Shown: piece after piece, positions 5,611 through 36,993 of the stretch | Layout of the letters: each line of letters opens with the position of its first letter | Numbering within the stretch: position 1 is the first letter of the stretch | Assembly (NCBI GenBank): GCA_021774435.1 | Contig: JAJFJB010000317.1 | Location: 1 to 37,006, forward strand | Source: Alphaproteobacteria bacterium | GTDB lineage: Bacteria; Pseudomonadota; Alphaproteobacteria; UBA8366; GCA-2717185 | Reading direction: 5' to 3' | DNA length: 37,006 nt | Notes under the pieces: model-generated | What the model was told of the DNA's origin: nothing | Databases searched by the model: none | Seen by the model: the letters and a program-made list of their open reading frames with translations, nothing else | Position numbers and translations under genes: made by a program

Positions 5611-5615
5611 TCCAG

Positions 5616-8837: not shown

Positions 8838-8847
8838 CGCGGCATCC

Positions 8848-9318: not shown

Positions 9319-9408
9319 CCTGATCTCCCTTTACCGTACCCAATCGCATTGCCACTGGAGACAATTCCAACAAACAACTAACCTGTTTGACGACACCACA
9401 ACAATAAC

Positions 9409-10230: not shown

Positions 10231-10234
10231 GCGA

Positions 10235-21494: not shown

Positions 21495-21620
21495 TTCACG
21501 GCAATTTGAGCCTTTTGATTATGGGGCTCGATTGTTAAGCTGCGCACAGCAATCTGCCGGACTCCCGCAGCGCGAGTGGGAGTAATAAGGCGGAAATTGG
21601 AACAGAGAGCGATACACGAA

Positions 21621-22589
21621 ATGGCAGACACGATTCTTGAACTCGATGATCTGACAATCCGTTTTAAGTTGAAGCGTGGCGACCTTACCGCCGTGAATGG
21701 CGTGTCATTTAAGGTCAAACGCGGCGAAACATTTGGATTGGTGGGTGAGTCCGGCTCCGGCAAAACAGTAACCGCGCGTTCGATCATGCGGTTGGTACCC
21801 ATGCCCCCGGGCGAAATCCTCAAGGGCAAGGTGCTTTTCGAAGGCGAAAGCGTCTACGACAAGTCCGATCAGGAAATGCGTGAGATGCGCGGCAGCAAGG
21901 TCGCAATGGTTTTTCAGGAACCGATGAGCGCGCTCAACCCCGTTTTTACGGTTGGAAGCCAAATTGGCGACGCGTTGCGTACCAACATGGGGATGAGCAA
22001 GCAGGAGGCGCAAGAACGTACCGTTGAGCTCTTGCAACTCGTCGGTATTCCCTCGCCGGGGTCGCGCCTTGACAGCTATGTCCATGAATTCAGCGGCGGC
22101 ATGCGCCAGCGTGTCATGCTGGCGATGGCCTTGAGTTGCGATCCGACATTTCTTATCGCGGATGAACCGACGACGGCGCTCGATGTGACGATTCAGGCGA
22201 CGATCCTGGAACTGATCGAAAGCATGATCGACCGCTTTGGCATGTCGCTCATTTTCATTACGCATAATTTAGGTGTTGTCGCGCATGCTTGCGATACGAT
22301 CGGCGTGATGTATGCCTCGCACATTGTCGAACTCGGATCGACGCAGGAATTGTTCAAGAATCCGCAGCACCCGTATACGATAGGGCTACTGAATTCCATT
22401 CCACGCCTTGACCATCAGTCGAAATATTTGACGCCGATCAAGGGGCTGGTTTGCAACATGATGAACCCGCCAACGGGATGCAAATTCCACCCGCGGTGCG
22501 ACAAGGCGATGGATATCTGTCGCAAGGAAATACCGCAAATGAAAGAACTCGCGCCGGGACACTTCGCGGCGTGTCATCTGCATAATTAA
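21621..22589 (+). CDS. ABC transporter ATPase, DppD/OppD type
   Basis: A 322-aa ATPase of the peptide/opine/nickel (PepT) class. Walker A is GESGSGKT, the Q-loop is [12 protein letters not shown], the signature is [12 protein letters not shown], Walker B is [12 protein letters not shown], and the switch His is in FITHNLG. The C-terminal oligopeptide-type extension with clustered cysteines ([15 protein letters not shown]) is present. Start 21621 (MADTILEL) is preferred over a GTG 15 codons upstream because it begins at the family's N-terminus. It is followed 24 bases later by the DppF-type ATPase. The matching permeases and binding protein are encoded on the opposite strand just beyond a shared terminator. 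It powers uptake at the cytoplasmic face of the inner membrane. Confidence 0.92.
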
Positions 22590-22613
22590 TTCACAGATTT
22601 GGAAGAGCGACAG

Positions 22614-23591
22614 ATGACCGAAAATCTTCTCGAAGTGCGCGGCCTGACCAAGCATTTCATGCTCGATAACGATACCGTTTCCCGGATGGCGGGGAAGACC
22701 CGTACCCTGAAGGCCGTCGATGGGATCGATTTTTTTATCAAACGCGGTGAGACGCTTGGCCTTGTTGGCGAAAGCGGTTGCGGCAAATCGACGACAGCAC
22801 GGCTTATCACGCGGTTGGTTGAACCAAGCAACGGCGAGGTCTTGCTCAAGGGCGAGAATCTTCTCAAATACAACCGTTCTCAGATGCAGGAAGTGCGCAA
22901 GACGGTTCAGCTGGTGTTCCAGGACCCCTACAGTTCATTGAATCCCAGCAAAACCATTATTAAAATCCTCAGCCGGCCATTGGAGGTTCATAAGCTTGCC
23001 AACAGCTGGAAAGAAAAGCGGCGGCGGGTTCTCGAACTTTTGAGTCTCGTCGGTCTGGGCGAGGAGCACGCGGACCGCTATCCCCATGAGTTCAGTGGTG
23101 GGCAGCGTCAGCGTATCGCGATCGCGCGGGCGCTCGCGGTAAGTCCGGAACTGATCATTGGCGACGAGCCGGTCTCGGCCCTGGACGTTTCGATTCAAGC
23201 ACAAATCCTAAACCTGTTCCGCGACTTGCAGGAACAGTTTTCACTGACATATTTGTTCATTGCGCATGATCTGAGTGTTATCCGGCATATCAGCGATCGG
23301 GTGGCCGTGATGTATGTCGGTAAAATTGTTGAAGCGGGCGATGTCGTCGAAATTTTCGAAAACCCCAAACACCCTTATACGAAGGCGTTGCTGCAGGCCG
23401 TTCCCGAAGCGGATCCGGACAAGCCGCCACCGCATCTGGTGCTGCAAGGTGAAGTGGCGACGCCAATCGATCCACCACCGGGCTGCCGGCTTTGCGCACG
23501 CTGCCCTCTCGCCGACGATTATTGCGCGGAAGTTGCACCGGAATTGAGAGACGATGGTGATGAGCACTATGTAGCGTGTCACAAGGTCTGA
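22614..23591 (+). CDS. ABC transporter ATPase, DppF/OppF type
   Basis: A 325-aa ATPase pairing with the DppD-type subunit. Walker A is GESGCGKST, the Q-loop VFQDPYSSLNP, the signature FSGGQRQRIAIA and Walker B LIIGDEPVSALD. The C-terminal extension has CRLCARCPLADDYC. Start 22614 is chosen because GGAAGAG stands 6 bases upstream; a TTG five codons earlier overlaps that site and is unlikely. Length is typical. It ends 69 bases before a strong hairpin-plus-T-run terminator that also faces the convergent permease gene. Substrate follows from the binding protein and is not known. Confidence in subunit type is high. Confidence 0.92.
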   Translation: MTENLLEVRGLTKHFMLDNDTVSRMAGKTRTLKAVDGIDFFIKRGETLGLVGESGCGKSTTARLITRLVEPSNGEVLLKGENLLKYNRSQMQEVRKTVQLVFQDPYSSLNPSKTIIKILSRPLEVHKLANSWKEKRRRVLELLSLVGLGEEHADRYPHEFSGGQRQRIAIARALAVSPELIIGDEPVSALDVSIQAQILNLFRDLQEQFSLTYLFIAHDLSVIRHISDRVAVMYVGKIVEAGDVVEIFENPKHPYTKALLQAVPEADPDKPPPHLVLQGEVATPIDPPPGCRLCARCPLADDYCAEVAPELRDDGDEHYVACHKV

Positions 23592-23710: not shown

Positions 23711-24661
23711 CTACCGTTCTGTCATCCTTGGGTCGAGGATATCACGGAGACCGTCGCCAAAGAGGTTGAATGCGAGAACCGTGTAACATATCGCCAATCC
23801 AGGGAAGATCGCGATCAGAGGGTTCGTTTCCATATGATCTCGCGATGCACTTAGGTCCGCACCCCAGTCCGGTGTCGGTGGTGGCGAGCCCAACCCGAGG
23901 AAGGACAAGGCGGCGATAATCAGAATCACGAAGCCCAACCGCACCGTTGCGTTCACGATCAACGGCGAGACGCAATTGGGTAGAATTTGTCGCATAGCGA
24001 TGTAGAGATTTGCCTCACCGATCGTATTCGAGGCTTCGACATATTCCTTTTGTTTTTCCGTGAGGACCGAACTTCGCGCGAGACGGGCCACTTCAGGGAA
24101 GAAGGCAAATCCCAGTGCAAAGACCAATATCAAGTCGTTCCAAAACCCTTCAAGCTTCCATTCTCGAGCAAGGGTTACGATCAATAGGTACAAGAGTATG
24201 CCAGGGAAGGCTAGCAGGCCATCCACAACCCGCATCGCAATTGAGTCAACCCAACCGCCGTAATAGCCTGATAGAACACCATAGGGAATGCCGATTGTGA
24301 GCCCGAATATGACGGCGACAATCGCGATTGATACAAGCCTTCGCCCCCCCCACAGGACCCGGGAATAAATATCCCGGCCATAGCGGTCGGTGCCAAAATA
24401 ATTTTCCGCGCTCGGTGCTTTAAGGAATGCGGAATAGTTCGGTTTGACCGGGTCATGCTTGGCGATCACCGGTGTGAGAAGCAGAATAATGATCAACGAC
24501 ACCAGCATAAGGCCGCCAATGAACGCGGTTTTACTTTTATACAGTTCGCTAAGCGCTTCCTGTAACATGCCGCCGTAGCGAGACATGCGTTCGGCCATTG
24601 TCGGCGGCTGAATCGCTTCTTCGATTCCGCGACGCCCGTTTTGCAGTTCCGTGCTTGACAT
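23711..24661 (-). CDS. ABC transporter permease, DppC type
   Basis: A 316-aa inner-membrane permease of the DppC class. A cytoplasmic N-terminus with a long linker is followed by a first membrane helix (FIGGLMLVSLIIILLLTPVIA), then the periplasmic DPVKPNYSAFLKAPSAENYFGTDRYGRDIYSRVLWGG segment that is a DppC hallmark. Further helices carry the EAA-type loop for ATPase contact (EASNTIGEANLYIAMRQILPNC), and the C-terminus ends in LFGDGLRDILDPR. It starts 13 bases after the DppB-type gene and is the last gene of the minus-strand transport operon. It forms the channel with a DppB-type partner; two candidate partners exist (24675-25625 and 27743-28693). Confidence 0.92.
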   Translation of the reverse strand: MSSTELQNGRRGIEEAIQPPTMAERMSRYGGMLQEALSELYKSKTAFIGGLMLVSLIIILLLTPVIAKHDPVKPNYSAFLKAPSAENYFGTDRYGRDIYSRVLWGGRRLVSIAIVAVIFGLTIGIPYGVLSGYYGGWVDSIAMRVVDGLLAFPGILLYLLIVTLAREWKLEGFWNDLILVFALGFAFFPEVARLARSSVLTEKQKEYVEASNTIGEANLYIAMRQILPNCVSPLIVNATVRLGFVILIIAALSFLGLGSPPPTPDWGADLSASRDHMETNPLIAIFPGLAICYTVLAFNLFGDGLRDILDPRMTER

Positions 24662-24674
24662 GACTCCGGCCCTC

Positions 24675-25625
24675 TTAATTCAATGCGACGCGCGGATTAA
24701 GCACGCGGTATAGCAAGTCGACCAATAGATTTACGCTCACAACGATAATACCGAGCACGAGAATGCCGGCCTGGATGAGCGGGTAGTCATGATCGATAAT
24801 GGCAAGGTAAATCGCCTGCCCAATACCCGGCCATGCGAAAATCGTTTCCAGGACCACCGTGCCGCCCAGCAAGTTTGCCAATTGCAGGCCGCTGATCGTG
24901 ATTGTCGGAATCAACGCATTGCGAAGCGTATATTTGTAAATCACTTTCGAATCCGAAAAACCGAGAGAGCGGGCCGTATCGACATATTCTTTGTTCATTT
25001 CGTCGAGCATGCTCGATCGTGTCAGCCTTGTCGTGTAGGCCGCTTGCCGAAATCCGACCGCAACTGCCGGCAAAATCAGATAGTACAAACTCTGACTTAG
25101 ATCTTCGAACGGGCTGACGTACCCTGATGATGGTAGTAATCCCCAGTGAAGCGAGAAAAGCAGAACGGCCATGATCGCAAACCAGAATTCGGGGATTGAA
25201 ATTCCTATAAGCGATGTGACTTGGGCCGCATAATCAGTCGGCGAGTTTCGTTTTACAGCCGCAATCGATCCCAACGGCACCGCGATGATGATGGAGATAC
25301 CAATGCCCACCAGAGCGAGATAGACCGTTGCCGGGATGGATTCGAACAGTTCCGTGGAAACCGGGCGCCGTGTAATCAGAGATTTTCCGAAATCGCCCTG
25401 TAAGGCCTTGCCGAGCCATATGCCATATTGGACATAAATCGGTTGGTCGAGGCCATATTCCTTCATCAGGAAGGCCCGCAGTTCTTCGTCTTCAGCTTCT
25501 TCGTCACCGATGAGCGTATCGATAACGTCACCGGGTAGAAGCTGAACAAACGAAAAGACCACCACCGTCAGCACGAAAAGCACCGGAATCATGTGGAGAA
25601 TTCGATTGATCGCGTAAATCAGCAT
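24675..25625 (-). CDS. ABC transporter permease, DppB type (copy 1)
   Basis: A 316-aa inner-membrane permease with the DppB layout: an N-terminal helix (ILHMIPVLFVLTVVVFSFV), the LLPGDVIDTL segment, and a periplasmic domain with KEYGLDQPIYVQYGIWLG and DFGKSL. The membrane core follows with TLRNALIPTITISG near the ATPase-contact loop and LETIFAWPGIGQAIY. GAGGAAA precedes the start. It lies between the binding-protein gene and the DppC-type gene, the normal order. A second DppB-type gene of exactly the same length at 27743-28693 matches about four fifths of its residues by eye, with no insertions, so one arose by duplication or both came in from close relatives. Confidence 0.92.
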   Translation of the reverse strand: MLIYAINRILHMIPVLFVLTVVVFSFVQLLPGDVIDTLIGDEEAEDEELRAFLMKEYGLDQPIYVQYGIWLGKALQGDFGKSLITRRPVSTELFESIPATVYLALVGIGISIIIAVPLGSIAAVKRNSPTDYAAQVTSLIGISIPEFWFAIMAVLLFSLHWGLLPSSGYVSPFEDLSQSLYYLILPAVAVGFRQAAYTTRLTRSSMLDEMNKEYVDTARSLGFSDSKVIYKYTLRNALIPTITISGLQLANLLGGTVVLETIFAWPGIGQAIYLAIIDHDYPLIQAGILVLGIIVVSVNLLVDLLYRVLNPRVALN

Positions 25626-25786: not shown

Positions 25787-27415
25787 TTACGTCATCCAAG
25801 AGGCGCGGAGACCGGCACCTTGGATGCTGTAGGGACCAGCGAAGGCTGGTGCATACCCTTTGAGGTTCTTCACGCCCGCTTCGAGTAGCGGAATGTAATG
25901 CGTGTAGAGCATGGGCAATTCTTCGTTCACGATTTCCTCAACAGCTTGATAAAGCTCAATCCGTTTGGCCTTATCGTCTGTTTGCTGCGCTTCGAGGATT
26001 AGTTTGTCCGCTTTCTCGCTCGCGAAGCCTGTCCGCAGCTTGGTCGAACCGGATGTCGATAGAACCGAACGACCGTACCAGGCATCCGGATCCGGACGGT
26101 AGCTGTTCGCTGTGGAATCGAGGTGGAATTCACCTTTCCGCCACTTCGCTTTCAGCACCGAATACGGGTGGATTTCGTGCTGCACCTTGAGGCCGACTTC
26201 CGACAGCATGGCGTGTACGATTTCACCGGTTTGGTGCATGTACGCATAGGCGTCGCGAGAGGTCAGGATGACGGGCTCGCCAACAGCGCCTGCTTTTTTG
26301 ATCAGGAAACGTGCTTTGTCCGGATCAAATTCATACGGGCGTTTGATGTCCGGCATGTACCACGGGCTGACCTTGCTGTAGAAGCCCGGCGCCGGTGAAC
26401 TCAAGCCGTTGAAGATGGCCTGGTGGACAGCGTCATGGTTGATCGCGTGCGCCGCCGCTTGACGAAGCAGCTTACCATGTGGGTTTTTCGGCGAGAACGG
26501 GCCGTTTTTCCAGTTGAAGCCGATATAGCCGGTACCAACCTGCGGGACGTCCCAGGAATTGTACTTGTCGCCGTACTTTTTCTTGAACCCGGCCGCGTCG
26601 GCATAGGACATGTTGTCGATGAGATCGACTTCACCGGTCCGCAGCGCTGTCAGACGAACCCTGTCTTCTTTCTTCGGACGGCCAACGATGCCGTCGAGAT
26701 AAGGCAGCGTATTGCCTTTGTCATCCGTCTCGTACCAGTTCTCGAACCGCTCCATGACCGTGGAATCGAACTTCTTCCAGGACTTGAACTTAAACGGTCC
26801 GCAACCGACCGGGTGCGTGTCGGCTTTGTCGACGCTTCCGGGGGCCATGAACTGCATGGGATAATAGGTTACGTTCGGGATAAGAACCGCACTTGGATTC
26901 TTCAGGTGCGCGCGCACCGTCCATTTATCGACAACTTCGATTTTCTCGAAGTCCTTAATCGCCGACCGGACGAACGGATGGCCAACCTTCGGGTCGAGAA
27001 TGCGTTCGAAGTTCCATTTGACGGATTCGGCGTCGACATCCTCACCATTGTGGTACGTCGCGCCCTTGCGGAGGTTGAACGTGTAGGTCTTGTTGCCATT
27101 GGAGATTTCGTGACCCACGGCGATGCCGGGCACGGGCTCCATTTTTTGGTTCAGATCCATCAGCCCCATCGATGTGGCGGCCAGCGGATGGGAAACGTAG
27201 TAATAGTAATTGCGGTGCATATCGAGGCCGCGGGAGTCCGCACGCGTTGCGAACCGCACAGTGCCGCCACGCTTGGGATCACGTTTTGCTGACGCTGCTT
27301 GTGGCGTCATGCCGACCGCTGCCGCACCGGCAACCGCGCCCGCTGTTCCTAAAAACTGACGTCGCGTCGGTCCCGAGCTTGTCTCTGGTTTTTTACTGGT
27401 ATCGTCTGTTGACAT
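25787..27415 (-). CDS. Extracellular solute-binding protein family 5, Tat signal
   Basis: A 542-aa periplasmic binding protein of the SBP_bac_5 (peptide/opine/nickel) class. The N-terminus has a twin-arginine signal: TRRQFLG at 17-23, a hydrophobic Ala/Gly stretch and a probable cleavage after QAASA (about residue 43). The mature part shows the family's RGLDMHRNYYYYVSHPLA, the signature-like LRKGATYHNGEDVDAESVKWNFERI, and a long C-terminal lobe. The Tat route is less usual than Sec for this family but common in alphaproteobacteria. GGGAGG stands about 8 bases before the start. Upstream are three GC-rich palindrome-like boxes (27441-27537). It supplies ligand to the adjacent permeases. The ligand is not readable from sequence. 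Confidence 0.93.
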   Translation of the reverse strand: MSTDDTSKKPETSSGPTRRQFLGTAGAVAGAAAVGMTPQAASAKRDPKRGGTVRFATRADSRGLDMHRNYYYYVSHPLAATSMGLMDLNQKMEPVPGIAVGHEISNGNKTYTFNLRKGATYHNGEDVDAESVKWNFERILDPKVGHPFVRSAIKDFEKIEVVDKWTVRAHLKNPSAVLIPNVTYYPMQFMAPGSVDKADTHPVGCGPFKFKSWKKFDSTVMERFENWYETDDKGNTLPYLDGIVGRPKKEDRVRLTALRTGEVDLIDNMSYADAAGFKKKYGDKYNSWDVPQVGTGYIGFNWKNGPFSPKNPHGKLLRQAAAHAINHDAVHQAIFNGLSSPAPGFYSKVSPWYMPDIKRPYEFDPDKARFLIKKAGAVGEPVILTSRDAYAYMHQTGEIVHAMLSEVGLKVQHEIHPYSVLKAKWRKGEFHLDSTANSYRPDPDAWYGRSVLSTSGSTKLRTGFASEKADKLILEAQQTDDKAKRIELYQAVEEIVNEELPMLYTHYIPLLEAGVKNLKGYAPAFAGPYSIQGAGLRASWMT

Positions 27416-27742: not shown

Positions 27743-28693
27743 TTATTGTAGAATTACCCTTGGATTTAGTGCGCGATAAAGTAAGTCAACCAATAGGTTT
27801 ACAATCACGACGATGAACCCGAGAACAAATACACCCGCTTGAATGAGGGGATAATCACGGTCGACGATTGCCAAATAGATCGCTTGGCCGATTCCGGGCC
27901 ACGCAAAAATCGTTTCTAGTACCACAGTACCGCCAAGCAGGTCGGCCAATTGCAAACCACTGATGGTGATCGTGGGTATCATCGCATTGCGGAGGGTGTA
28001 TTTATAAATAACACGCTTTTCCGTAAACCCCAGCGAGCGAGCGGTATCCACGTATTCCTTGTTCATTTCGTCCAGCATGCTTGAGCGCGTCAATCGCGTT
28101 GTGTAAGCAGCCTGCCGAAAACCGATCGCGGCGGCGGGCAGGATCAGATAAAGCAGACTCTGCTTCCAGTCTTCGAAGGGACTCATATAGCCGGATGAGG
28201 GAAGCCAGCCCAGATAGAGCGAAAAAACAAGTACGCACATAATGGCGAACCAGAATTCAGGTATCGAGATTCCGATTAGGGATGATACCTGCGCTGTATA
28301 ATCTATGGGCGTATTTCGTTTTACAGCGGCAATCGATCCTAAAGGTACTGCAATCAAGATTGAGATTGTGATGCCTGCAAGCCCGAGATAGACCGTCGCG
28401 GGTATGAGTTCGAACAACTCCGTTGCAATACTCCGTCGCGTCACTAGGGATTTTCCGAAGTCGCCCTGCATGACTTTGCCGAGCCAGAGTCCGTACTGGA
28501 TGTAGACGGGCTTATCGAGTCCGTATTCTTTTAACAGAAGTGCTCGAATTTCCGGATCTTCCGCCTCCTCGTCACCGACGAGCGTGTCGATGACGTCCCC
28601 CGGTAGAAGGTGCACGAAAGAGAATACGACGAGAGAAAGAATAATCAGGACCGGAATGAGATGGAGCACCCGGTTAACCGTATAGATCAGCAT
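27743..28693 (-). CDS. ABC transporter permease, DppB type (copy 2, duplicated)
   Basis: A 316-aa permease collinear with the DppB-type protein at 24675-25625. It has the same LLPGDVIDTL, GDEEAED, IGISIPEFWFAIM, TRLTRSSMLDEMNKEYVDTARS and LETIFAWPGIGQ segments, and differs mainly by conservative changes in the membrane helices and in the QYGLWLGKVM and SGYMSPFEDWKQSL loops. All membrane segments are intact, so it is not a pseudogene. No DppC-type gene or remnant follows it: an AT-rich gap and then the binding-protein gene come next. It lies 125 bases after the ThDP decarboxylase beta-subunit gene and may share that transcript. It could swap with copy 1 in the transporter to change expression or specificity; this is inference. 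Confidence 0.9.
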   Translation of the reverse strand: MLIYTVNRVLHLIPVLIILSLVVFSFVHLLPGDVIDTLVGDEEAEDPEIRALLLKEYGLDKPVYIQYGLWLGKVMQGDFGKSLVTRRSIATELFELIPATVYLGLAGITISILIAVPLGSIAAVKRNTPIDYTAQVSSLIGISIPEFWFAIMCVLVFSLYLGWLPSSGYMSPFEDWKQSLLYLILPAAAIGFRQAAYTTRLTRSSMLDEMNKEYVDTARSLGFTEKRVIYKYTLRNAMIPTITISGLQLADLLGGTVVLETIFAWPGIGQAIYLAIVDRDYPLIQAGVFVLGFIVVIVNLLVDLLYRALNPRVILQ

Positions 28694-28818: not shown

Positions 28819-29400
28819 TTAGTTCTCGAGGACAGCCATTCGGAACCGGTCCTTGGCGAAAGCACCATCCAGCGGCGGATAAACCGTCCCGGGCAATTCC
28901 GGCGCCACCTTGATGACATAGAATGCGGGCCCTTCATCCTCGTGGATAGCGTTGACCGTATTTTGCAGTTCGCCGTCAGTGTGGACCGTGCCCGTTACTG
29001 ATATACCGGATCCGGCAGCGATCGCCGCCAGGTCCGTGACCCCGGCGGTGTGGGTGAGTTGCCCGCCGGTTTCGCCGTAGCGCTCGTTATCGAGCACAAC
29101 GATGATCAGATTGCGCGTTCCTGCGTGAGCGACCGTGGACAGTGAGCCCATGCCCATCAGCATATCGCCGTCGCCTGTGATCACGAGAACGCGGTTGTCG
29201 GGTCTCGCTTCGGCGAGGCCGAGCCCGACTGGCACTGCGAGACCCATGGCGCCAACCAGACAAAAATCGCGATGATTGTCATCTGTTGCCGCGATATCCC
29301 ACGAGGATGAGCCGAGGCCGCCGACGACAAGCAAATCGCGTTTCCGGGGTGCGAGTATTTGGCCAACTACATCGCGCCGCTGCAGCATTGTCGTACTCAT
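28819..29400 (-). CDS. ThDP-dependent decarboxylase, beta (ThDP-binding) subunit, ComE-like
   Basis: A 193-aa protein corresponding to the C-terminal pyrophosphate-binding domain of thiamine diphosphate enzymes. The ThDP motif GDGD begins at residue 76 and ends at N105 in VVLDNERYGETGGQ, which is close to my memory of ComE, the beta subunit of sulfopyruvate decarboxylase, and of phosphonopyruvate decarboxylases. Its partner, the pyrimidine-binding half, is encoded directly upstream with a 4-base ATGA overlap, so the two form one split enzyme. The reaction would be non-oxidative decarboxylation of a 2-oxo acid bearing a charged group (3-sulfopyruvate to sulfoacetaldehyde, or phosphonopyruvate to phosphonoacetaldehyde). 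Substrate choice is open because the family is poorly sampled. Confidence 0.88.
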   Translation of the reverse strand: MSTTMLQRRDVVGQILAPRKRDLLVVGGLGSSSWDIAATDDNHRDFCLVGAMGLAVPVGLGLAEARPDNRVLVITGDGDMLMGMGSLSTVAHAGTRNLIIVVLDNERYGETGGQLTHTAGVTDLAAIAAGSGISVTGTVHTDGELQNTVNAIHEDEGPAFYVIKVAPELPGTVYPPLDGAFAKDRFRMAVLEN

Positions 29401-29918
29401 TTGAACCCCTTAGCGCCGATTAGCCGTTGCGAAATCAGAACGGCTGATGAACAATTGTTGTTGAAAGCTTGTTTTGCCGCCGCATTCACGGTGTCGGTCA
29501 TCTCTTCCGGCCGGTCTACGCGGAACAGGGACACGCCCATCGCGTCCAGCGCGCCTGGCGCGCCTTGTCCCATAGGGACCTGCCATGGGTTCCCTTCACC
29601 CCATTCGCCGCGCATGGTCACGATAGTCAGGAACGGCATTCGGCACGCAGCGGGTAATGCTAGCGCATTGATTGTATTGCCGACTCCACTACTTTGCATC
29701 AACAGGGCGCCGCGACGGCCGCCAAGCCAGGCGCCGGCGAGGATGCCAACGCCTTCTTCTTCGGTGGTCAATGTAATGACTGACATATCGTTCTGTGCGC
29801 TACACAAACGGATCAATCGGTCGTGTCCGGCGTCGGGAACGTGGCAAATTTGTGTGATATCCTGAGCGCGAAGTACCGTAAAAATATCTTCTGGCCACTC
29901 GGCCGTTTCCTTATTCAT
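29397..29918 (-). CDS. ThDP-dependent decarboxylase, alpha (Pyr-domain) subunit, ComD-like
   Basis: A 173-aa protein corresponding to the N-terminal pyrimidine-binding domain of ThDP enzymes. The conserved glutamate that activates the cofactor is in TTEEEGVGILAGAWLGGRRGALLMQSSGVGN (E55 region). The following MRGEWGEGNPWQVPMG segment is of the kind seen in phosphonopyruvate and sulfopyruvate decarboxylase alpha chains. GAGGAAA precedes the start at 29918. Its stop overlaps the start of the beta subunit by four bases. It is the first gene of the minus-strand run that continues with the duplicated permease and the transport operon, hinting that the transported compound yields a 2-oxo acid. That link is inferred from position. 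Confidence 0.88.
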   Translation of the reverse strand: MNKETAEWPEDIFTVLRAQDITQICHVPDAGHDRLIRLCSAQNDMSVITLTTEEEGVGILAGAWLGGRRGALLMQSSGVGNTINALALPAACRMPFLTIVTMRGEWGEGNPWQVPMGQGAPGALDAMGVSLFRVDRPEEMTDTVNAAAKQAFNNNCSSAVLISQRLIGAKGFK

Positions 29919-30350
29919 GTTTCCTCTGTCGTCGTTCTAAAAGACGAAGCCGCGTGGCTGCGAATGAGAGGATAGCGCCTGAAAAGGATATTGGAAGGGA
30001 AGGCACTCATTGCGCGCGGCGGCTCATTTTTGTCAAATCTTAAATTGTATCGATATCCCACTATGAGCCCCGGGCCGCCGGGGCCGTTGTGGTCAGGCCT
30101 ACAGGTGTCGCCAATAATCACGTGAGCGGGACAGATACATTCGCCTGTGAATCCAACGGATTGACCGTTCGACCGCAAGACACGCAAAAATTAATTAAAA
30201 TTAGAGATTAATTAAGCTCGCCTCGGTTAACTATTTCCATTAAGTATCAATACTTTAGCCTTGCATTTTCGGAAAATTACTGTATAGTTTCGCTACTCTC
30301 AAGTTAATGATTTAGGGGCGGTCTGACAGTTCCGGACCGGGTATTTGAGA
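29919..30350. other. Divergent intergenic region, no gene
   Basis: 432 bases separate the decarboxylase alpha gene (minus) from flagellin (plus). I see no supportable coding frame. It holds a short GC hairpin (GCCCCGG at 30067-30073 pairing with CCGGGGC at 30078-30084) and an AT-rich stretch with TTAATTAA twice (30191-30198 and 30208-30215). Beyond these lies the flagellin promoter candidate listed separately. Confidence 0.7.
30261..30288 (+). promoter_or_regulatory. Candidate sigma70-type promoter for flagellin
   Basis: TTGCAT (30261-30266) and TATAGT (30283-30288) are separated by 16 bases, 62 bases before the flagellin ATG. AT-rich DNA with two TTAATTAA palindromes lies upstream. I did not find a convincing flagellar sigma28 or sigma54 promoter, though a diverged one could be missed. 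Confidence 0.45.
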
Positions 30351-31166
30351 ATGGCAGATCAAGTCAGTCTTTCGGGGGCAGTACGCTCCAACCTGCTGGG
30401 ATTGCAGCAAACGTCAGGTTTGGCGCAGCGGACCGATAACCGACTGTCGTCTGGTCTTCGGGTGCGCGATCCGCTGGACGGCGCCGCTGAGTTCTTCCAG
30501 TCACGCGCCTTGAGCGACCGGGCCCAAGATTTAACACAGACCAAGGACGGTGTGGATCAGGCTCTCAGCACCATTCAGGCGGCGACGAACGGTCTGGACG
30601 CGATCGGTCAGCTCACGCAGCAGGCAGAAGGCTTGGCGCTTGCCGCGCGGAATACCAGTGATCCCACGCAACGGGCAGCGCTGGCGGATCAATTCAACGA
30701 AGTGCGCTCGCAGATAGATAGTCTCGCGCAGGACTCGGGTTTCGGCGGGACGAATTTGGTGCAAGGGTCGCCGGATAACCTTGATGTCGGCTTGAATGAG
30801 GATGGTTCCAGCAGCCTGACAGTGCAAGGTGCGGACTCTTCAAGCGCGGGCCTCGGCATCGGGAGCCGGACCTTCGCGAGTGATGCCGATATCGATGCGG
30901 CGCTTGCGGAAACCCGCGACGCGTTGTCGACGGTTCGTACGAATACGGCGACTCTGGGGTCAAGTTCCTCGGCATTGCAGACCCGGCTTGATTTTACCGA
31001 AGACCTCACGAACACGCTGGAAGCGGGTGCCGCTTCCTTGACCAATGCCGATTTGACGGAAGAGGCGGCGAATCGGTTGTCGCTTCAGACGCGCCAGCAA
31101 GTCGGTCTGAATGCGACCAGCTTAGCGGCGCAGAGCGAGACCGCAATCTTGGGATTGTTTGGCTAG
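30351..31166 (+). CDS. Flagellin, compact form
   Basis: A 271-aa flagellin, the subunit of the flagellar filament. The N-terminal D0/D1 part shows SLSGAVRSNLLGLQQTSGLAQRTDNRLSSGLRVRDPLDGAAEFF and a long coiled-coil-like helix (QALSTIQAATNGLDAIGQLTQ). The C-terminal D1/D0 part runs from TRLDFTEDLTNTLEAGAASL to LNATSLAAQSETAILGLFG. The central surface domain is very short, as in other compact alphaproteobacterial flagellins. The start is ATG at 30351 (MADQVS); a TTG two codons upstream is the alternative and no strong ribosome site is visible. No other flagellar gene lies in the window. A hairpin stands 39 bases after the stop. Confidence 0.88.
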   Translation: MADQVSLSGAVRSNLLGLQQTSGLAQRTDNRLSSGLRVRDPLDGAAEFFQSRALSDRAQDLTQTKDGVDQALSTIQAATNGLDAIGQLTQQAEGLALAARNTSDPTQRAALADQFNEVRSQIDSLAQDSGFGGTNLVQGSPDNLDVGLNEDGSSSLTVQGADSSSAGLGIGSRTFASDADIDAALAETRDALSTVRTNTATLGSSSSALQTRLDFTEDLTNTLEAGAASLTNADLTEEAANRLSLQTRQQVGLNATSLAAQSETAILGLFG

Positions 31167-31204
31167 AAGAATTTACGTTGTCGCTTCTTGGGTGACTTGT
31201 TAAA

Positions 31205-31237
31205 GACGGCCGTGCTTCATTAAGACGCACGGCCGTC
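31205..31237 (+). terminator. Hairpin after flagellin, possible terminator
   Basis: A perfect 11-bp stem, GACGGCCGTGC (31205-31215) paired with GCACGGCCGTC (31227-31237), with an 11-base loop. Only a weak run (GCTAATTCT) follows, so it may work with Rho or protect the 3' end rather than terminate by itself. Confidence 0.65.
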
Positions 31238-31393
31238 GCTAATTCTGACATCGACTCGTCGAACTGGGATTAGGACCGGTGCGGCTCAGGATTGATTTCC
31301 TGCGGTGCCTTTGCTTCCGCTATAAATAGGACAGTACAAATAACTTGTCGGTCTGGCCGACAGTAATGCCTGGAAATGGGAGTGGAGCCGCGC

Positions 31394-33754
31394 ATGCCTG
31401 CAAAGCGTCTTTCTGCCGCCGATGTGTCCCTGCCTAAAATGGAACCCGGATTTCGGTCCGGTGGCGACATATTCACGTTATCGAGCCACAGCCGCGCACG
31501 GAAGGCACTTGAATTCGGCCTCAATGTAACCGACTCCGGCTTTAACATTTTTGTTGTTGGCGAAGATCGCAGCGGTCGAATGACGTCGACGATGAACTTT
31601 CTCGAATCGTTCGTCGAGGATGAACCGCCACCCAGCGATTGGGTTTATCTGAATAACTTTCGGCGGCCGCATCGGCCACGACCCCTGCCATTACCAGCGG
31701 GCGTAGGCCGGCGTTTTCGGGACCGCATGATCGTGTTGGTCCGCCAAATTCGGGAATCGCTTTCCGGCGCGTTTGGCGGCGATCAATATCAATCCGAGGT
31801 CCGGGCCGAAAGCGAGAAGCTGCAGCAATCCGTCGCCACTGAAATGGATGCGTTGAGAACGGAAGCGCAAGCAGTAGGATTGGATGTTATCCAATCGCAG
31901 CAGGGCGCTACCGTCGTCCCCATCAACGCGGAAGGCAAACCGGCAAACCTGGATGAATTCTCGGTCGAAGACCAGCAGCGCCTTCAGGAGGCAGCCAAGG
32001 CAATAGGAGAAAAGCTGGGCGCAATTAATCGCCGGGCGGCGCGTGAGCACGGCGAACTCGGCGCACGTGTTTTGCAAATTACAAGGGACACAGCGGATAC
32101 CGCGCTGGACGTCCAATTCGATGCCGTTCGTGAAGAATTTTCCGGATATGGCGGCGTCGTGCGCTGGCTTGTTGAAATGCGCAACGACGTTCTGGAGAAT
32201 GTGCATTTGTTCGGCAAAGGCGATGAGTCGGAAACCCGCCGTGAGCTTCCGGAAGATCGCTATGCGATAAACCTGTTCGTTGATCACAGTGACGACCCCA
32301 ACCCGGGCGTCCTGTTGGAAGCGAATCCTTCCTATGAAAATCTCTTTGGCCGCATGGAATACAGGCCTGCGGAGGGTGGCCTCTATACCGACTTTACAAT
32401 GCTGCGCGCCGGGTCGGTGCACCGGGCGAATGGCGGCATTCTCGCGCTTCGCGCCGAATCGCTGGCCCAAAACCCAGTGAGCTGGGAATTCCTCAAAGGG
32501 GCGCTTCGGGATGGCGAAATCCGCATCGAGGAAATGCAAAGAAATGGTGCGGTACCTTTAGCCGGAGCGCCGCGGCCAAAACCCGTACCGCTCGATTTGA
32601 AAGTGGTAATTATCGGGGCGCCACGTTGGTATTACGCGTTTTTCTCGATCGATCCGGAGTATCAGACCTACTTCAAAGTCAAGGCCGACATCGACGCCGA
32701 TATGGACATAACGCCCGAAAACGTTGCCAGCTATGCAGCGCTCATTCGGAAATTCGCCCACGACCACAACGAATTCGAAATCGACGACGACGCGGTTCAG
32801 CGACTGATTGGCATGGCAACGCGATGGGCCGAGAATCGCGAGAAGCTGACGGCACGGTTTGAAATTGTCCAGGATGTCATTTTGGAAGCTGTGGAGCTTG
32901 CGATCGAGGCCAAATCGACAACGGTGACGCTTGATATCGTATTGCAGGCGGTCGAGAATCGCCGTCGCCGAAACGCCAGGGTCGAAGACCGCATGCAGGA
33001 ATCGATCGCCGACGGACAGGTCATGATTGCCACCACCGGCCAGACAGTGGGGCAGATTAACGGTCTGACGGTACGCGATCTTGGCGATCATGCCTTCGGG
33101 GGGCCGGCGCGCATTACCGCGCGTGCTTCCGCCGGGCGTCACGGCGTCATCAATATAGAAAGACAGGTCGCACTGGGCGGACCGATCCAGCAGAAAGGCG
33201 TTATGGTGCTGCAGGGATTCCTGTCGGGCCGGTTTGCGCGCCGCTTCCCGCTCTCCTTCAACTGCTCGATCACCTTTGAACAAAATTATGGCGGCGTCGA
33301 AGGGGACAGCGCGTCTCTAGCGGAAGTCTTGGCGATCCTCTCGGATTTGGCCGGGTTGCCGCTGCGCCAGGATCTCGCAATCACGGGATCGATGAATCAG
33401 CGCGGAGACGCCCAGGCGATCGGCGGAGCCCACCACAAGATCGAAGGGTTCTTCCGCAGTTGCCTCGAAAATGGTGGGCTAAATGGCGAGCAAGGGGCCG
33501 TCGTACCGGCGTCCAATGAGCGCAATCTGATATTGCGCGACAAGGTCGCAGAAGCGGTCGAGGCGGGGCAATTCCATATATGGAGCGTTCAGACGATCGA
33601 CGAGGCTGCAGAACTCTTTATGGGCTTGCCGGCGGGCGAGCTTGGCGCCGACGGCCGCTATCCGGCGGATACTATTTACGGCCGTGTGCAGGTCGAATTG
33701 GAAGCCTTCGACAAAGCGCTCTATGAGCGCGAGCGATGGGCGGGCGCTGAGTGA
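31394..33754 (+). CDS. Lon-like ATP-dependent protease family protein, altered Walker A
   Basis: A 786-aa protein of the Lon-related family with a large helical insertion in its AAA part (YcbZ/LonH-like). Start 31394 (MPAKRLSA) is chosen because TGGAG stands 6 bases upstream; an ATG six codons earlier has none. The N-terminal AAA region has GEDRSGRM (56-63), where Arg62 stands at the usual P-loop lysine. The insertion (about 110-250) is coiled-coil-like. The second AAA segment has NGGILALRAESL (346-357), with Arg353 where a Walker B acid is often found. The C-terminal Lon protease domain is intact: catalytic S639 in GDSASLAE and K682 in HHKIEG, 43 residues apart as in E. coli Lon. Peptidase activity is likely; ATP dependence is uncertain. 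Confidence 0.88.
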   Translation: MPAKRLSAADVSLPKMEPGFRSGGDIFTLSSHSRARKALEFGLNVTDSGFNIFVVGEDRSGRMTSTMNFLESFVEDEPPPSDWVYLNNFRRPHRPRPLPLPAGVGRRFRDRMIVLVRQIRESLSGAFGGDQYQSEVRAESEKLQQSVATEMDALRTEAQAVGLDVIQSQQGATVVPINAEGKPANLDEFSVEDQQRLQEAAKAIGEKLGAINRRAAREHGELGARVLQITRDTADTALDVQFDAVREEFSGYGGVVRWLVEMRNDVLENVHLFGKGDESETRRELPEDRYAINLFVDHSDDPNPGVLLEANPSYENLFGRMEYRPAEGGLYTDFTMLRAGSVHRANGGILALRAESLAQNPVSWEFLKGALRDGEIRIEEMQRNGAVPLAGAPRPKPVPLDLKVVIIGAPRWYYAFFSIDPEYQTYFKVKADIDADMDITPENVASYAALIRKFAHDHNEFEIDDDAVQRLIGMATRWAENREKLTARFEIVQDVILEAVELAIEAKSTTVTLDIVLQAVENRRRRNARVEDRMQESIADGQVMIATTGQTVGQINGLTVRDLGDHAFGGPARITARASAGRHGVINIERQVALGGPIQQKGVMVLQGFLSGRFARRFPLSFNCSITFEQNYGGVEGDSASLAEVLAILSDLAGLPLRQDLAITGSMNQRGDAQAIGGAHHKIEGFFRSCLENGGLNGEQGAVVPASNERNLILRDKVAEAVEAGQFHIWSVQTIDEAAELFMGLPAGELGADGRYPADTIYGRVQVELEAFDKALYERERWAGAE

Positions 33755-33767: not shown

Positions 33768-34979
33768 TCAGGCAAGCGTCAGCGGATAGGATAGGTAGCC
33801 TCGGAACCGGGCCCTGCCGCCGCGTTTAGGCGCGCCATTCGGCTTCAGTTCCGGGAACCGCTGCAACAGGCGGCCAATCGCAATTCGTCCTTCCATTCGC
33901 GCCAAGGTCATGCCGGCGCAGGCGTGAATGCCGGCGCCGAAGGCGAGATGCCGGTTGGGCGTTCGCGTGATATCGAGGCGGTCCGGATCGGGAAACTCCG
34001 CCGGATCCCGGTTGGCGGCGCCAATACAGAGTGTGATGAACGTGCCGGCCGGCATGCCGACGCCGCCGATTTCAACGTCTTCGGATGCGCGCCGATTGCC
34101 AAGTTGATTGGAACTTTCAAACCGCAAGAACTCCTCGACCGCGGCGGTGATGAGATCGGGGTTCTCCTGCAATTTTTGGCGCTCGTCTGGGTATTCAATC
34201 AAGGCGGCGATGCCATTGCCGATAAGGTTCGTCGTCGTTTCATGTCCGGCGTTGAGCAAGAAAATGCAATTCTGAATCAGTTCTTCATCAGACAATTGCT
34301 CGCCATCGACCTCTCCGACAATGAGGGCCGTGAGCACATCTTCGTCCCGGGGATTCTTGCGCCGATCGACAATGAGTTCGTGTAGATACGCAGAAAATTC
34401 GGTGACGGCGTCGTTTCCATGACGTGCCACTTCTTCGGAAAGGACGGGTTCCAGGGCGCCCAGAATCGCCAGCGACCACCCTCGCAAGGGACCGCGGTCC
34501 GCGCGCGGCACGCCCAGCATGTCGCCAATGATCTCCACCGGCAGCGCCGACGCGAAACCGCCGATGAGATCCATTTCGCCTCGGCTTTCCGCATCGTCAA
34601 GCAACATATCGACGAGTTCGACAAAGCGCGGCTCCAAGACCGAAAGCGCCCGTGGCGTGAAGGCAGGCGATAGCAGTTTTCTGACACGGGTGTGCAGCGG
34701 TGGGTCATTGAAGACGAGGCTTGTCGTATGGTGCCGATAGAGGGGGGTGTCGCCGAATTTCGGGCCGAATTCCGCCTTCTTGTCGGAACTGAACCGCCGG
34801 TCGCGATACACCGCCATGACGTCGGCATAGCGGGTCAAAAAATAGGACCCGTCCAGGCATCGGTGCACGGGGTCATGTTCGCGCAACGCGGCGTAGGTCG
34901 GAAATGGGTCATCGAGGAACGTCTGATCGATTTTGCTAAGATCGAAGTCCGCGGCACGGGACGCAGGGTTGTTAGACAT
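33768..34979 (-). CDS. Cytochrome P450
   Basis: A 403-aa soluble bacterial P450. The I-helix oxygen-activating motif is AGHETTT (244-250), ExxR is EFLR (283-286), and the heme loop is FGAGIHACAG with the thiolate ligand C354. N-terminal features (DPFPTYAALREHDPVH, the C-helix HTRVRKLLSPAF) are typical of bacterial class I enzymes that take electrons from ferredoxin. No ferredoxin or reductase gene is nearby. It converges on the Lon-like gene (13 bases between stops) and lies 81 bases downstream of alkB on the same strand, so read-through from the repair operon is possible but need not be meaningful. Substrate is unknown; such enzymes hydroxylate fatty acids, terpenes, steroids or aromatics. 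Confidence 0.94.
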   Translation of the reverse strand: MSNNPASRAADFDLSKIDQTFLDDPFPTYAALREHDPVHRCLDGSYFLTRYADVMAVYRDRRFSSDKKAEFGPKFGDTPLYRHHTTSLVFNDPPLHTRVRKLLSPAFTPRALSVLEPRFVELVDMLLDDAESRGEMDLIGGFASALPVEIIGDMLGVPRADRGPLRGWSLAILGALEPVLSEEVARHGNDAVTEFSAYLHELIVDRRKNPRDEDVLTALIVGEVDGEQLSDEELIQNCIFLLNAGHETTTNLIGNGIAALIEYPDERQKLQENPDLITAAVEEFLRFESSNQLGNRRASEDVEIGGVGMPAGTFITLCIGAANRDPAEFPDPDRLDITRTPNRHLAFGAGIHACAGMTLARMEGRIAIGRLLQRFPELKPNGAPKRGGRARFRGYLSYPLTLA

Positions 34980-35060: not shown

Positions 35061-35726
35061 CTAAAGCGCTTTACGGAATGTGAGATTAATTCGATTACGG
35101 CCTGTCAACGGATGGCATCCCTCGGCGATTGGTGCAATGCCGTGAAAATTAAGGCGGGCCGGGCCGCCCCATACAACGACATCGCCGCTGTCGAGGCGAA
35201 TGCGTTGAGGCCGGCCGGATCTTTTGTCGCCGCCGAATAGGAATATGGCGGATAAGCCTAGAGAGACGGAAACAATCGGGGCGTTGAAATCCTGCTCGTC
35301 GCGATCCTGATGCAAGGATAGCCTTGTCCCCGGACTGTAGCGGTTGATCAGGCAGGCATCCGGTTCGAACCCGTCAAATTCCCCGGCGGTTGCAGCACGT
35401 GTTGCAAGATTCAGGAATGTCTCTGGCATGGCAGGCCATGGCTGACCGGATGCCGGATCTTCGCTTTCATAGCGATATCCCCGCTTATCGCTGATCCAAC
35501 CGGCAGTACCGCAATTTGTCATCTCAACCGACATCTTGCGGCCGCCGGGCGTTGCCATGCACCGAAAGGGTGCGCTGTTGGCGATTTTGTTGACGGCGTC
35601 GATGAGAGTGGGCGCGTCATCTCGTGCGAACCCGCGAAGCAGTCGCGCGCCGGGAGACAGCGCTTCCCTCTCTAGTAAGCTGGCGGCAAACAAGTCTTGC
35701 GGCGCCATGTCAGGTCGTCTGGTCAT
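35061..35726 (-). CDS. alkB: AlkB, DNA/RNA oxidative demethylase
   Basis: A 221-aa Fe(II)/2-oxoglutarate dioxygenase that removes N1-methyladenine and N3-methylcytosine lesions by oxidation. All key residues align with E. coli AlkB at a constant offset of eight: iron ligands H139 and D141 (LHQDRDE) and H195 (LNFHGIAP), and the 2-oxoglutarate arginines R212 and R218 (NRINLTFRKAL). The nucleotide-recognition lid with MSVEMTNCGTAGWISDKRGYRY is present, and LINRYSPGTRLSLHQD is nearly the textbook motif. Its ATG overlaps the stop of the preceding oxygenase gene by four bases, so it is the third gene of a translationally coupled alkylation-repair operon. Confidence 0.96.
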   Translation of the reverse strand: MTRRPDMAPQDLFAASLLEREALSPGARLLRGFARDDAPTLIDAVNKIANSAPFRCMATPGGRKMSVEMTNCGTAGWISDKRGYRYESEDPASGQPWPAMPETFLNLATRAATAGEFDGFEPDACLINRYSPGTRLSLHQDRDEQDFNAPIVSVSLGLSAIFLFGGDKRSGRPQRIRLDSGDVVVWGGPARLNFHGIAPIAEGCHPLTGRNRINLTFRKAL

Positions 35727-36457
35727 TGCGCGTCGTGAAAAATGATGCCGAGTGTATGGCGATTACCGGATAGTACGCGGCTCACCCCATGACGAAGGTT
35801 GACCCGGTAGGTGCGCTTGACGCCCTGCACCGGACGCTGGCGCACGGGGAAAATGACCCCGTCTCCGTGCTGCAAGGGAACCACCATAGCGCGGGATTGC
35901 ATGCGTGGCCGCTGTTCCGTCATGACAAATTCACCGCCCTTGAAATCGCGGCCCGGTTCCGACAGGAGAATTGCTATTTGCAGCGGAAACACCGTCTCGC
36001 CGTAAAGGTCTTGGTGCAGGCAATTGAAGTCGTCCGCCTCGTACTTCAGCAGCAGGGGTGTCGGCCTGGTTTGCCCCGCGGCATGGCATCGATCCAGAAA
36101 AACCTGAAGATCCGCCGGATAATGAATGTCGATCCGCATCGCATCGTTCCATCGGTTCGCGATCTTGCAGAGTGATGGATAGAGAGCGGTTCGCAGGTCC
36201 TGGACCACCTGCGGCAAGGGATAGGCGAAATACTTGTACTCGCCACGACCGAAACCATGCCGCGCCATAACGACGCGGCTGCGGAAAGCGTCATCTTTTG
36301 GATAGAGGTCGATAAGCTGCCGGCATGCGGTGGAATCCAGCATCGAAGGTATGATCGCAAACCCCTCGGATTGCAGTTCGTTGGCGATATGGCACCAATC
36401 GAGTTGCGCGGTCTGAGCCGATTGCGGTGCAATATCAGCGCTGGCCACGTCGCTCAC
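35723..36457 (-). CDS. 2OG-Fe(II) oxygenase of unknown substrate in repair operon
   Basis: A 244-aa Fe(II)/2-oxoglutarate oxygenase that is not AlkB. The start is taken as GTG at 36457 because it overlaps the upstream methyltransferase stop as GTGA; the frame is open 42 codons further, but that part is a shadow of the methyltransferase gene. Iron ligands are H148 and D150 (CLHQDLYG) and most likely H223 (VNLRHGVSRV); R233 in NRHTLGIIFHDA would bind 2-oxoglutarate. The fold resembles prolyl-4-hydroxylase-like bacterial proteins. An N-terminal helical part (DWCHIANELQSEGFAIIPSML) precedes it. Both flanking genes repair alkylated DNA and both junctions are 4-base overlaps. A role in alkylation damage is therefore likely, but the substrate (base, nucleotide or protein) is unknown. 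Confidence 0.88.
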   Translation of the reverse strand: MSDVASADIAPQSAQTAQLDWCHIANELQSEGFAIIPSMLDSTACRQLIDLYPKDDAFRSRVVMARHGFGRGEYKYFAYPLPQVVQDLRTALYPSLCKIANRWNDAMRIDIHYPADLQVFLDRCHAAGQTRPTPLLLKYEADDFNCLHQDLYGETVFPLQIAILLSEPGRDFKGGEFVMTEQRPRMQSRAMVVPLQHGDGVIFPVRQRPVQGVKRTYRVNLRHGVSRVLSGNRHTLGIIFHDAQ

Positions 36458-36993
36458 TGTATGGCCTCTCTTTCGAGAAGGATACGTTTGCGCTCGATGC
36501 CCCAGCGATATCCGGATAGCGATCCATCGCCGCGGACAACGCGGTGGCACGGAATGGCGACGGCAATAGGGTTCGCCGCGCACGCTCTCGCGACAGCCCG
36601 GACGGCCTTGGGAGACCCAATGCGCGTGGCGATGTCCTTATAGCTCGCGGTTGTGCCCGGTTCGATTTCTCGCAGCGCCTGCCAGACGCGGATCTGGAAA
36701 TCGGTGCCGTCGGGATCGATCTGAAATTCGGCACTTTCTGTCGGGTTTTCGATGAATTTCAAAACCACGGCAATGACCGATCCGAATTCTTCCTTACCGC
36801 GCTGGAGGTTCGCGTCAGGAAATCGCAATTCGAGATCATCCGTCAGGGCGTCTGCGTCATCGCCAAACAGGACCGCGCAAATCCCCCGTTCGGTCGCGGC
36901 AACCAGAACCTGCCCAAGCGACCAGGGACTTGTCGCATATTGGATTTTTTCGCCGGCTTTATCTCGACTGTCTTTTGCCATGTCGATGTCCAT
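36454..36993 (-). CDS. O6-alkylguanine-DNA methyltransferase (Ogt-like, or Ada C-terminal part)
   Basis: At least 179 aa. The suicide methyl-acceptor is C149 in PCHRV. The helix-turn-helix and Asn hinge region is SYKDIATRIGSPKAVRAVARACAANP, and SLSGYRWGIERKR follows the active site. The N-terminal RNase H-like domain has SLGQVLVAATERGICAVLFGDD. The sequence is closer to the C-terminal domain of Ada as I recall it (ELGRCLVAESERGICAILLGDD) than to short Ogt. The frame is still open at the window end, four codons before the ATG at 36993, and no ribosome site is visible before that ATG or the one at 36981. It may therefore be a complete small protein or the last third of an Ada regulator. First of three coupled repair genes. 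Confidence 0.9.
   Translation of the reverse strand: MDIDMAKDSRDKAGEKIQYATSPWSLGQVLVAATERGICAVLFGDDADALTDDLELRFPDANLQRGKEEFGSVIAVVLKFIENPTESAEFQIDPDGTDFQIRVWQALREIEPGTTASYKDIATRIGSPKAVRAVARACAANPIAVAIPCHRVVRGDGSLSGYRWGIERKRILLEREAIQ

Follow-up and report, generated by a model that had tools for sequence, protein, structure and literature searches.

A predicted two-gene thiamine diphosphate decarboxylase of an alphaproteobacterium grouping apart from ComDE and Ppd

Two overlapping genes encode the halves of a thiamine diphosphate enzyme

The stretch of DNA analysed here, hereafter the window, comprises 37,006 nucleotides of contig JAJFJB010000317.1 (assembly GCA_021774435.1) from an Alphaproteobacteria bacterium of the UBA8366 lineage. 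On its reverse strand it carries two adjoining genes, alpha and beta, for the two halves of a predicted thiamine diphosphate (ThDP)-dependent enzyme, which an initial annotation had likened to sulfopyruvate and phosphonopyruvate decarboxylases. The elements of the pair are as follows (aa, amino acids):

29397-29918, minus strand: alpha subunit gene, PYR-type (N-terminal) ThDP half, 173 aa
29760-29762, minus strand: codon of the catalytic-type Glu, alpha E53
28819-29400, minus strand: beta subunit gene, PP-type (C-terminal) ThDP half, 193 aa
29071-29073, minus strand: codon of beta E110, the pocket position (Ser in RhiF, ComDE and Ppd)

The stop codon of alpha overlaps the start codon of beta in the tetranucleotide ATGA. 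Alpha matches Pfam PF02776 (TPP_enzyme_N) with 31.5 bits (cut-off 26.8) and beta matches PF02775 (TPP_enzyme_C) with 73 bits (cut-off 21.9), which confirms the overlapping half-domains described initially. Among alpha E53, E54 and E55, the invariant Glu is E53, while E55 is nearly invariant only; the initial annotation had named the E55 region. Its beta motif was right, as GDG (residues 76-78) and N105 are invariant in a 26-row alignment. In broad kind, genes for a PYR and a PP half-domain adjoin and carry the catalytic Glu and the GDG...N motif.

AlphaFold models of the separate halves were confident, with mean predicted local distance difference test (pLDDT) values of 90.9 and 91.5. A fold search with the beta model gave RhiF (9iz4_B) as the top solved-structure match (template modelling score (TM) 0.81, ~30% identity), and the two proteins matched by sequence at 1.4e-20. 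For alpha, the top fold matches were chains of the AzcB/AzcC complex (9u8q_A, 9u8r; ~20% identity), and RhiE (9iz4_A) was also strongly matched (TM 0.83, ~24% identity). The remaining three genomes of the genus each contain an orthologous pair, with 86-87% identity in alpha and 72-74% in beta. Being intact and having orthologues across the genus, the pair is not a product of chance. A full-length enzyme of the acetolactate synthase type was considered and rejected, since it needs a chain of ~550 aa with a middle (TH3) domain and the pair consists of 173 + 193 aa.

Several known systems share this layout. ComDE likewise has two small ThDP half-domain subunits encoded by adjacent, often overlapping genes, with the same catalytic Glu and GDG...N motifs, and RhiEF of Bacillus subtilis ATCC 6633 (PDB 9iz3/9iz4) is a two-gene, heteromeric phosphonopyruvate decarboxylase; a passage of PMC12141560 compares the two. 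The fused Ppd (TIGR03297) holds the same two half-domains in one chain. According to its entry titles, AzcB/AzcC of Streptomyces (9u8q/9u8r/9u8s) is a two-gene ThDP-dependent alpha-imino acid decarboxylase, whose substrate is by title not a 2-oxo acid. LumK/LumL is described in a section of PMC12746152 as a ThDP-dependent heterocycle decarboxylase, a 1:1 complex of ThDP proteins of 20 kDa and 23 kDa, and is likened to the pair by this description of a two-gene ThDP decarboxylase, not by sequence. Given the odd substrates of AzcB/AzcC and LumK/LumL, an unexpected substrate for the window pair would not be exceptional.

The pair falls in a clade separate from ComDE and Ppd

Among NCBIfam models, both halves match the ComDE subunits best, with 133.3 bits for beta against TIGR03846 (cut-off 221.5) and 127.5 bits for alpha against TIGR03845 (cut-off 147.95), both under the cut-offs. 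Against TIGR03297, the model of the fused form of Ppd, beta scored 127.6 and alpha 67.5 bits, under the cut-off of 312.5. A midpoint-rooted tree was built from 94 of the 177 rows collected, a set that leaves out the full characterised ComDE sequences of M. jannaschii and Roseovarius as well as RhiEF, LumKL and AzcBC. In this tree, ComDE (9 rows) and Ppd (8 rows) were separated from 77 rows of type I and type II pairs with a branch support of 100/99. The window pair falls inside the 77-row type I clade, in which type II is nested. Forcing the window lineage (7 rows) to group with ComDE was rejected (approximately unbiased test, p-AU 0.0155), and forcing it to group with Ppd was rejected marginally (p-AU 0.041). 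Furthermore, a scan of a genome collection yielded 579 confirmed matches, from which 80 loci were taken, and a quick tree placed 78 of these 80 in the same clade as the window pair.

By its sequence placement, the pair is a member of a clade separate from ComDE and Ppd. A phylogenetic check of this kind, proposed with the initial annotation for characterised proteins, set the pair apart from both groups; nor is the pair, at 173 + 193 aa, a full-length enzyme like acetolactate synthase. ComE passing its cut-off was detected in 6 of 289 genomes of the class, at loci 56-72% identical to the copy (L089) of relative G031, and these loci formed one clade (99/94) with the copies of relatives G011 and G031.

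Some members of the collected set depart from the common form. GDG reads GDA in the type I beta of the Reyranella-like loci L145, L156, L160 and L168, while their clade neighbours L125, L127 and L146 retain GDG. At L074 (genome G025, 1169-2906), two distinct beta genes in tandem follow a single alpha gene; they share 45% and 50% identity with the window beta. L092, L094 and L096 represent a third, very divergent split ThDP family from the same order and class; read by eye, their neighbours include hydantoinase/oxoprolinase-like genes (L094) and a gamma-glutamyltransferase-like gene (L096). L102 (G049, 5886-10826) is a split ThDP pair beside xanthine-dehydrogenase-type and ABC (ATP-binding cassette) transporter genes, also read by eye; judged in the same way, its alpha is similar to the 9u8r chain and its layout recalls the LumK/LumL cluster.

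Glutamate in place of serine at a predicted substrate-pocket position

The position five residues past the DN of the GDG...DN motif, termed here the pocket position, is E110 in the window beta. We take it to correspond to I472 of Zymomonas pyruvate decarboxylase and A460 of benzoylformate decarboxylase, counting after the NN motif in these sequences. According to a passage of PMC3534367, standard positions 476 and 477 (E473 = 477) belong to the variable S-pocket or form its entrance, and a portion of PMC6435721 on engineered benzoylformate decarboxylase has A460 among the mutations drawn in the active centre.

Of 133 type I rows, 131 have Glu at the pocket position; 129 of the rows were matched by pattern (127 with Glu) and 4 were read directly (all with Glu). 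Glu is also present in 10 of 10 type II rows, and Ser in 12 of 12 ComDE and 14 of 14 Ppd rows, the rows being related and some of them identical. The pattern left 9 of 177 rows unmatched, of which the four type I rows were rescued by reading and L092, L094, L096, L102 and L215 were not counted; an 'other' group (L193, L196 and L197) was kept apart. Moreover, a profile alignment sets the type I Glu on a Ser of RhiF. A Glu at this position would disfavour a sulfonate or phosphonate group in the substrate. The split architecture of the ComDE/RhiEF kind that had been recognised initially is upheld, but the assignment as a sulfopyruvate or phosphonopyruvate decarboxylase does not agree with the scores, the clade or the pocket residue.

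ComDE, Ppd and Xsc in the own genome and in relatives

The genome of the window (G000), in which the window lies on contig C243, contains two further loci of the half-domain kind. One, on contig C397, is a paralogous pair beside hydantoinase/oxoprolinase-like genes. The other, on contig C465, is a fused Ppd that directly adjoins a phosphoenolpyruvate (PEP) mutase passing its cut-off (391.5 bits, cut-off 319.55); a PEP mutase search found no match on C243. The PEP mutase of this locus (L084, ~5509-8303), which abuts the fused Ppd, has 553 aa and is longer than the 284-position family, and phosphatidylserine synthase and decarboxylase genes were read by eye ~2.5 kb from it. C465 is a possible phosphonate or phosphonolipid locus.

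Across 59 genomes, the own genome included, alpha passed the ComD cut-off in three (G011, G016 and G033), and two others (G022 and G031) reached 147.0 bits, 0.95 under it; all five hold ComDE alongside a window-type pair. Xsc passed its cut-off (676.4) in 20 of the 59, including a true Xsc in the own genome (928.7 bits) and in G003; a partial match of 630 bits in G002 was counted as none. Type I pairs, called from strong beta matches of which not all were placed in the tree, were present in 30 of the 59 genomes, with G027 and G030 (42% matches) left out. In G004 (100% complete), the pair occurs without any Xsc that passes the cut-off. The initial annotation had seen no downstream gene for sulfoacetaldehyde or phosphonoacetaldehyde; this holds for the window as read, but Xsc and PEP mutase lie elsewhere in the genome.

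Surroundings of the pair and the adjacent Dpp-type transporter

The other features of the window considered here are as follows:

27743-28693, minus strand: DppB-type permease, copy 1, starting 125 bp past the beta stop
25787-27415, minus strand: Tat-signal solute-binding protein of the Dpp-type transporter (context)
24675-25625, minus strand: DppB, second copy (context)
23711-24661, minus strand: DppC (context)
21576-23591, plus strand: DppD/DppF-type ATPases of the Dpp-type transporter (context)
16198-17049, plus strand: TauD/TfdA gene, ~12 kb from the pair, on the side opposite the AlkB oxygenases
33768-34979: P450, 4 kb from the pair, past the flagellin-like and LonB-like genes

The permease gene that had been noticed after beta on the same strand proved to be of the Dpp type; the sole model passed by the transporter is a general dipeptide ATPase subfamily. 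The dppB gene adjoins beta in all four genomes of the genus (the window and L038-L040). In the sister genus, none of four pairs has dppB beside it, the other flank being kept as far as the contigs reach, and all DppB homologues are distant (39% identity or less). In G009, from a third genus, the transporter is found at 84% identity on contig C407, which lacks the pair, and the pair lies on C53 beside a gamma-glutamyltransferase (GGT) gene. The absence of the transporter from the sister genus and its separation in G009 indicate a lineage-specific arrangement. More remote Dpp/Opp-type genes (at most 45% identity) occur within 8 kb at three other relative loci (L051, L066 and L070) and at four of the 80 genome-collection loci (L129, L143, L162 and L183). 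GGT genes adjoin the pair or lie one gene away in G007, G009, G019 and G028; with 8 to 21 GGT matches per genome, single adjacencies are weak. The Dpp transporter was thus rejected as a generally conserved partner, the close arrangement being limited to one genus. The adjacent dppB is probably not a functional partner of the pair, and the transporter would not be a dedicated importer for the decarboxylase; the link that had been drawn between the pair and the transporter is likewise confined to the genus.

The two DppB-type genes of the window are 82% identical, and the cluster has a single DppC. Two DppB copies are present in all four genomes of the genus (on separate contigs in G002); contig C407 of G009 has one, adjoining the binding protein.

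Upstream of the pair, the TauD-like dioxygenase reported initially turned out to be AlkB and an Oxygenase-NA (PF09859) at 35061-36583, the true TauD lying ~12 kb away on the plus strand; the proposed TauD link was rejected on this ground. Judged by the encoded families, these oxygenases belong to a DNA alkylation repair cluster; at 35061-36993, AlkB, Oxygenase-NA and 6-O-methylguanine-DNA methyltransferase genes overlap in a row. Nearer to the pair, at 30345-33754, a short flagellin-like gene (273 aa) adjoins a LonB-like protease gene; this two-gene flank is also present in L038, in L040 and in the sister genus but not in L039. Heterocycle chemistry of the LumKL kind was considered because of the P450 gene and set aside, the gene being 4 kb distant and the only pointer in that direction.

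Gene context in wider relatives and on plasmids

The 80 genome-collection loci are, by label, mostly alpha-, beta- and gammaproteobacterial, with one Nitrospira. At 60 representative loci, the genes in operon-like positions (147 in total; some loci had none) were heterogeneous, and a universal operon partner was set aside on account of this mixture. In addition, 78 plasmid records matched, of which 30 were listed and 16 opened; 15 of these were annotated (L231, also labelled H24, was unannotated and dropped). Ten of the 16 were placed in the tree, all within type I and on several branches, with H2, H6, H14, H28 and H30 outside the tree.

An aldehyde dehydrogenase gene lies within ~8 kb of the pair in 13 of the 15 annotated plasmid loci, which are not independent (two Deinococcus, two Mesorhizobium and two Methylobacterium); it is directly next to the pair in nine, once as a 130-aa fragment. 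The same loci contain genes for a coenzyme A (CoA)-transferase (10 of 15), an acyl-CoA dehydrogenase (9), a MaoC dehydratase (8), MmgE/PrpD (8) and a CoA ester lyase (7). As a control, six equally long stretches, drawn from six of these plasmids, contained none of the six families. PxpA (5-oxoprolinase subunit) genes were found in five of the 15 loci, in two of them only after three loci had been extended, and genes for an aminotransferase or a dehydrogenase of the glutamate type occur in some clusters. In Bosea sp. F3-2, the best solved-structure match of MaoC is itaconyl-CoA hydratase (1.5e-58), and the lyase best matches RipC/Ccl, below the cut-off (161.2 of 375).

According to parts of PMC12290011, Cupriavidus necator and Pseudomonas aeruginosa degrade methylsuccinate and itaconate by a proven route, the gene cluster for which encodes a CoA transferase, itaconyl-CoA hydratase, citramalyl-CoA lyase, acyl-CoA dehydrogenase and MmgE/PrpD. 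Genes of these types are also found repeatedly next to plasmid-borne type I pairs. The cluster itself, however, contains no ThDP pair (the words 'thiamine' and 'aldehyde dehydrogenase' are absent from the main text of that article), and such a gene set is not seen beside the window pair.

Context was further checked at 109 type I loci by tblastn, for which the Bosea proteins served as queries (E 1e-20, up to 8 kb from alpha); several contigs are short, which lowers the counts. A 3-hydroxyisobutyrate-dehydrogenase-type gene (query from L137) was found near 12 of 80 collection loci (eight of them SAR116-type, L110-L120) and 7 of 29 relative loci. The open reading frame (ORF) caller misses genes in AT-rich loci, and absences in L052, L067, L068 and L069 are not evidence. 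In at least six loci of family f2, a conserved protein of ~88 aa is encoded directly upstream of alpha (for example L047 10948-11214; L048 2771-3064, with no Pfam match; L066 9816-10085).

Proposed function and alternative explanations

On balance, our data lean towards a role of the pair as a 2-oxo-acid decarboxylase from an uncharacterised subfamily; its substrate is probably not sulfopyruvate or phosphonopyruvate and perhaps a branched 2-oxo-dicarboxylate. Alpha and beta would assemble as a heteromeric, non-oxidative ThDP decarboxylase, in which the alpha Glu would activate the cofactor and the beta GDG...N would hold Mg-ThDP; a 2-oxo acid would add to ThDP, CO2 would be lost and an aldehyde released. 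From the scores, the tree and the pocket residue, we infer that the substrate is neither sulfopyruvate nor phosphonopyruvate. The new substrate that had been considered possible at the outset is thus the best reading. More tentatively, the plasmid-borne relatives, and they alone, hint at a branched 2-oxo-dicarboxylate of the 2-oxoglutarate kind as the substrate class. In these relatives, a semialdehyde product may be oxidised by the aldehyde dehydrogenase and enter CoA-dependent steps, and methyl-2-oxoglutarate could be converted to methylsuccinate by the 2-oxo-acid decarboxylase and the aldehyde dehydrogenase together. A broader version, that type I and type II form a new family for branched 2-oxoglutarate-like acids which opens an undescribed soil route, with the window pair as a marine member, is in our view improbable. 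In such a route, methyl-glutamate or methyl-5-oxoproline would be converted to the 2-oxo acid by an aminotransferase or glutamate-type dehydrogenase and PxpA; the type I pair would then form methylsuccinate semialdehyde, the aldehyde dehydrogenase would form methylsuccinate, and methylsuccinyl-CoA/itaconyl-CoA steps would lead to pyruvate and acetyl-CoA.

A number of observations weigh against these proposals. In the tblastn check, an aldehyde dehydrogenase was near just 5 of 80 genome-collection loci, which lowered the already low odds that we had given to the branched-acid family, and near none of 29 relative loci, including 0 of 10 in the family of the window. The other plasmid-type genes were similarly sparse in the collection (n = 80) and the relatives (n = 29), respectively: acyl-CoA dehydrogenase 11 and 4, CoA-transferase 10 and 4, MaoC 6 and 0, MmgE 6 and 1, and lyase 2 and 0. 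The plasmid gene pattern is clearly not general among type I pairs. A RipC/Ccl lyase over the curated cut-off was found in none of the 59 genomes, and no gene naming a substrate was found among the neighbours of the window pair. Two type I rows carry Ala in place of the pocket Glu, and the rejection of a joint clade with Ppd is marginal. Sulfur-linked genes also occur beside some pairs: in family f4, TauE/SafE exporter and rhodanese genes lie beside the pair, in L149 a D-cysteine-desulfhydrase-like gene (by eye) precedes it, and the B. guangxiense cluster holds a cysteine dioxygenase. Given such neighbours, some members may act on a sulfur-containing substrate. Within f4, a TauE/SafE-type gene overlaps beta in L056 (Pfam-checked) and in L071; in L070, this gene separates alpha from beta. 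A rhodanese-type gene lies upstream in L056 and L070.

It is unlikely, though worth weighing, that the pair is a de facto sulfopyruvate decarboxylase, a divergent replacement of ComDE that feeds the Xsc of the genome. No ComDE over the cut-off was found in the own genome, though Xsc is present; ComDE subunits are the best models for both halves; Xsc occurs in 15 of 30 type I genomes versus 5 of 29 others (Fisher p 0.013, uncorrected for kinship); and the f4 neighbours fit sulfur metabolism. However, the pair scores under both ComDE cut-offs, falls in a separate clade and has Glu in place of Ser, and five relatives hold ComDE as well. The 15 type I genomes without Xsc over the cut-off, the complete G004 among them, argue against an obligate route from sulfopyruvate to Xsc, though such a route may still operate here. 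Xsc is equally accounted for by the use of taurine or isethionate. A role in phosphonate metabolism, as a phosphonopyruvate decarboxylase comparable to RhiEF, is far less probable still: although no solved structure is closer to beta than RhiF, RhiF has Ser at the pocket position, the genome already has a distinct fused Ppd by a PEP mutase, and no phosphonate gene was recognised among the window ORFs, not all of which were searched. The pair also differs from Ppd in clade and in the pocket residue.

We consider it rather unlikely that the pair works with the adjacent Dpp-type transporter as a single catabolic unit, in which an imported peptide- or opine-like compound would yield the 2-oxo acid. 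The shared strand, the gap of 125 bp and conservation in all four genomes of the genus speak for such a unit, as do the distant Dpp/Opp-type genes at other loci, and the GGT genes near the pair hint at peptide-like compounds. However, in all four genomes of the sister genus the pair occurs without the transporter, G009 keeps the two apart, the DppD-type matches may be ATPases of other ABC systems, and GGT genes are numerous.

The leading proposal, a 2-oxo-acid decarboxylase of an uncharacterised subfamily, has no described counterpart in the literature searched, mostly without subscription papers, where no paper on the type I subfamily was found. Nor did these searches find a paper on alpha-imino acid decarboxylase, or anything relevant on ThDP with citramalyl-CoA lyase and MmgE or on 4-methyleneglutamate; for methyl-2-oxoglutarate, the strongest among the matches listed concern 4-hydroxy-4-methyl-2-oxoglutarate. 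Some type I genes have been deposited as phosphonopyruvate decarboxylase, or even as aldehyde dehydrogenase, and the usual database names for this branch are probably wrong. Type I genes are common, with 579 confirmed matches in one collection scan, and estimates of bacterial sulfonate and phosphonate turnover would come out too high if these genes were taken for ComDE or Ppd. Glu versus Ser at one residue offers a simple annotation test. If the reading of the plasmid context is true, some members of the subfamily would catalyse the first step of an as yet undescribed pathway that degrades branched C6 2-oxo acids.

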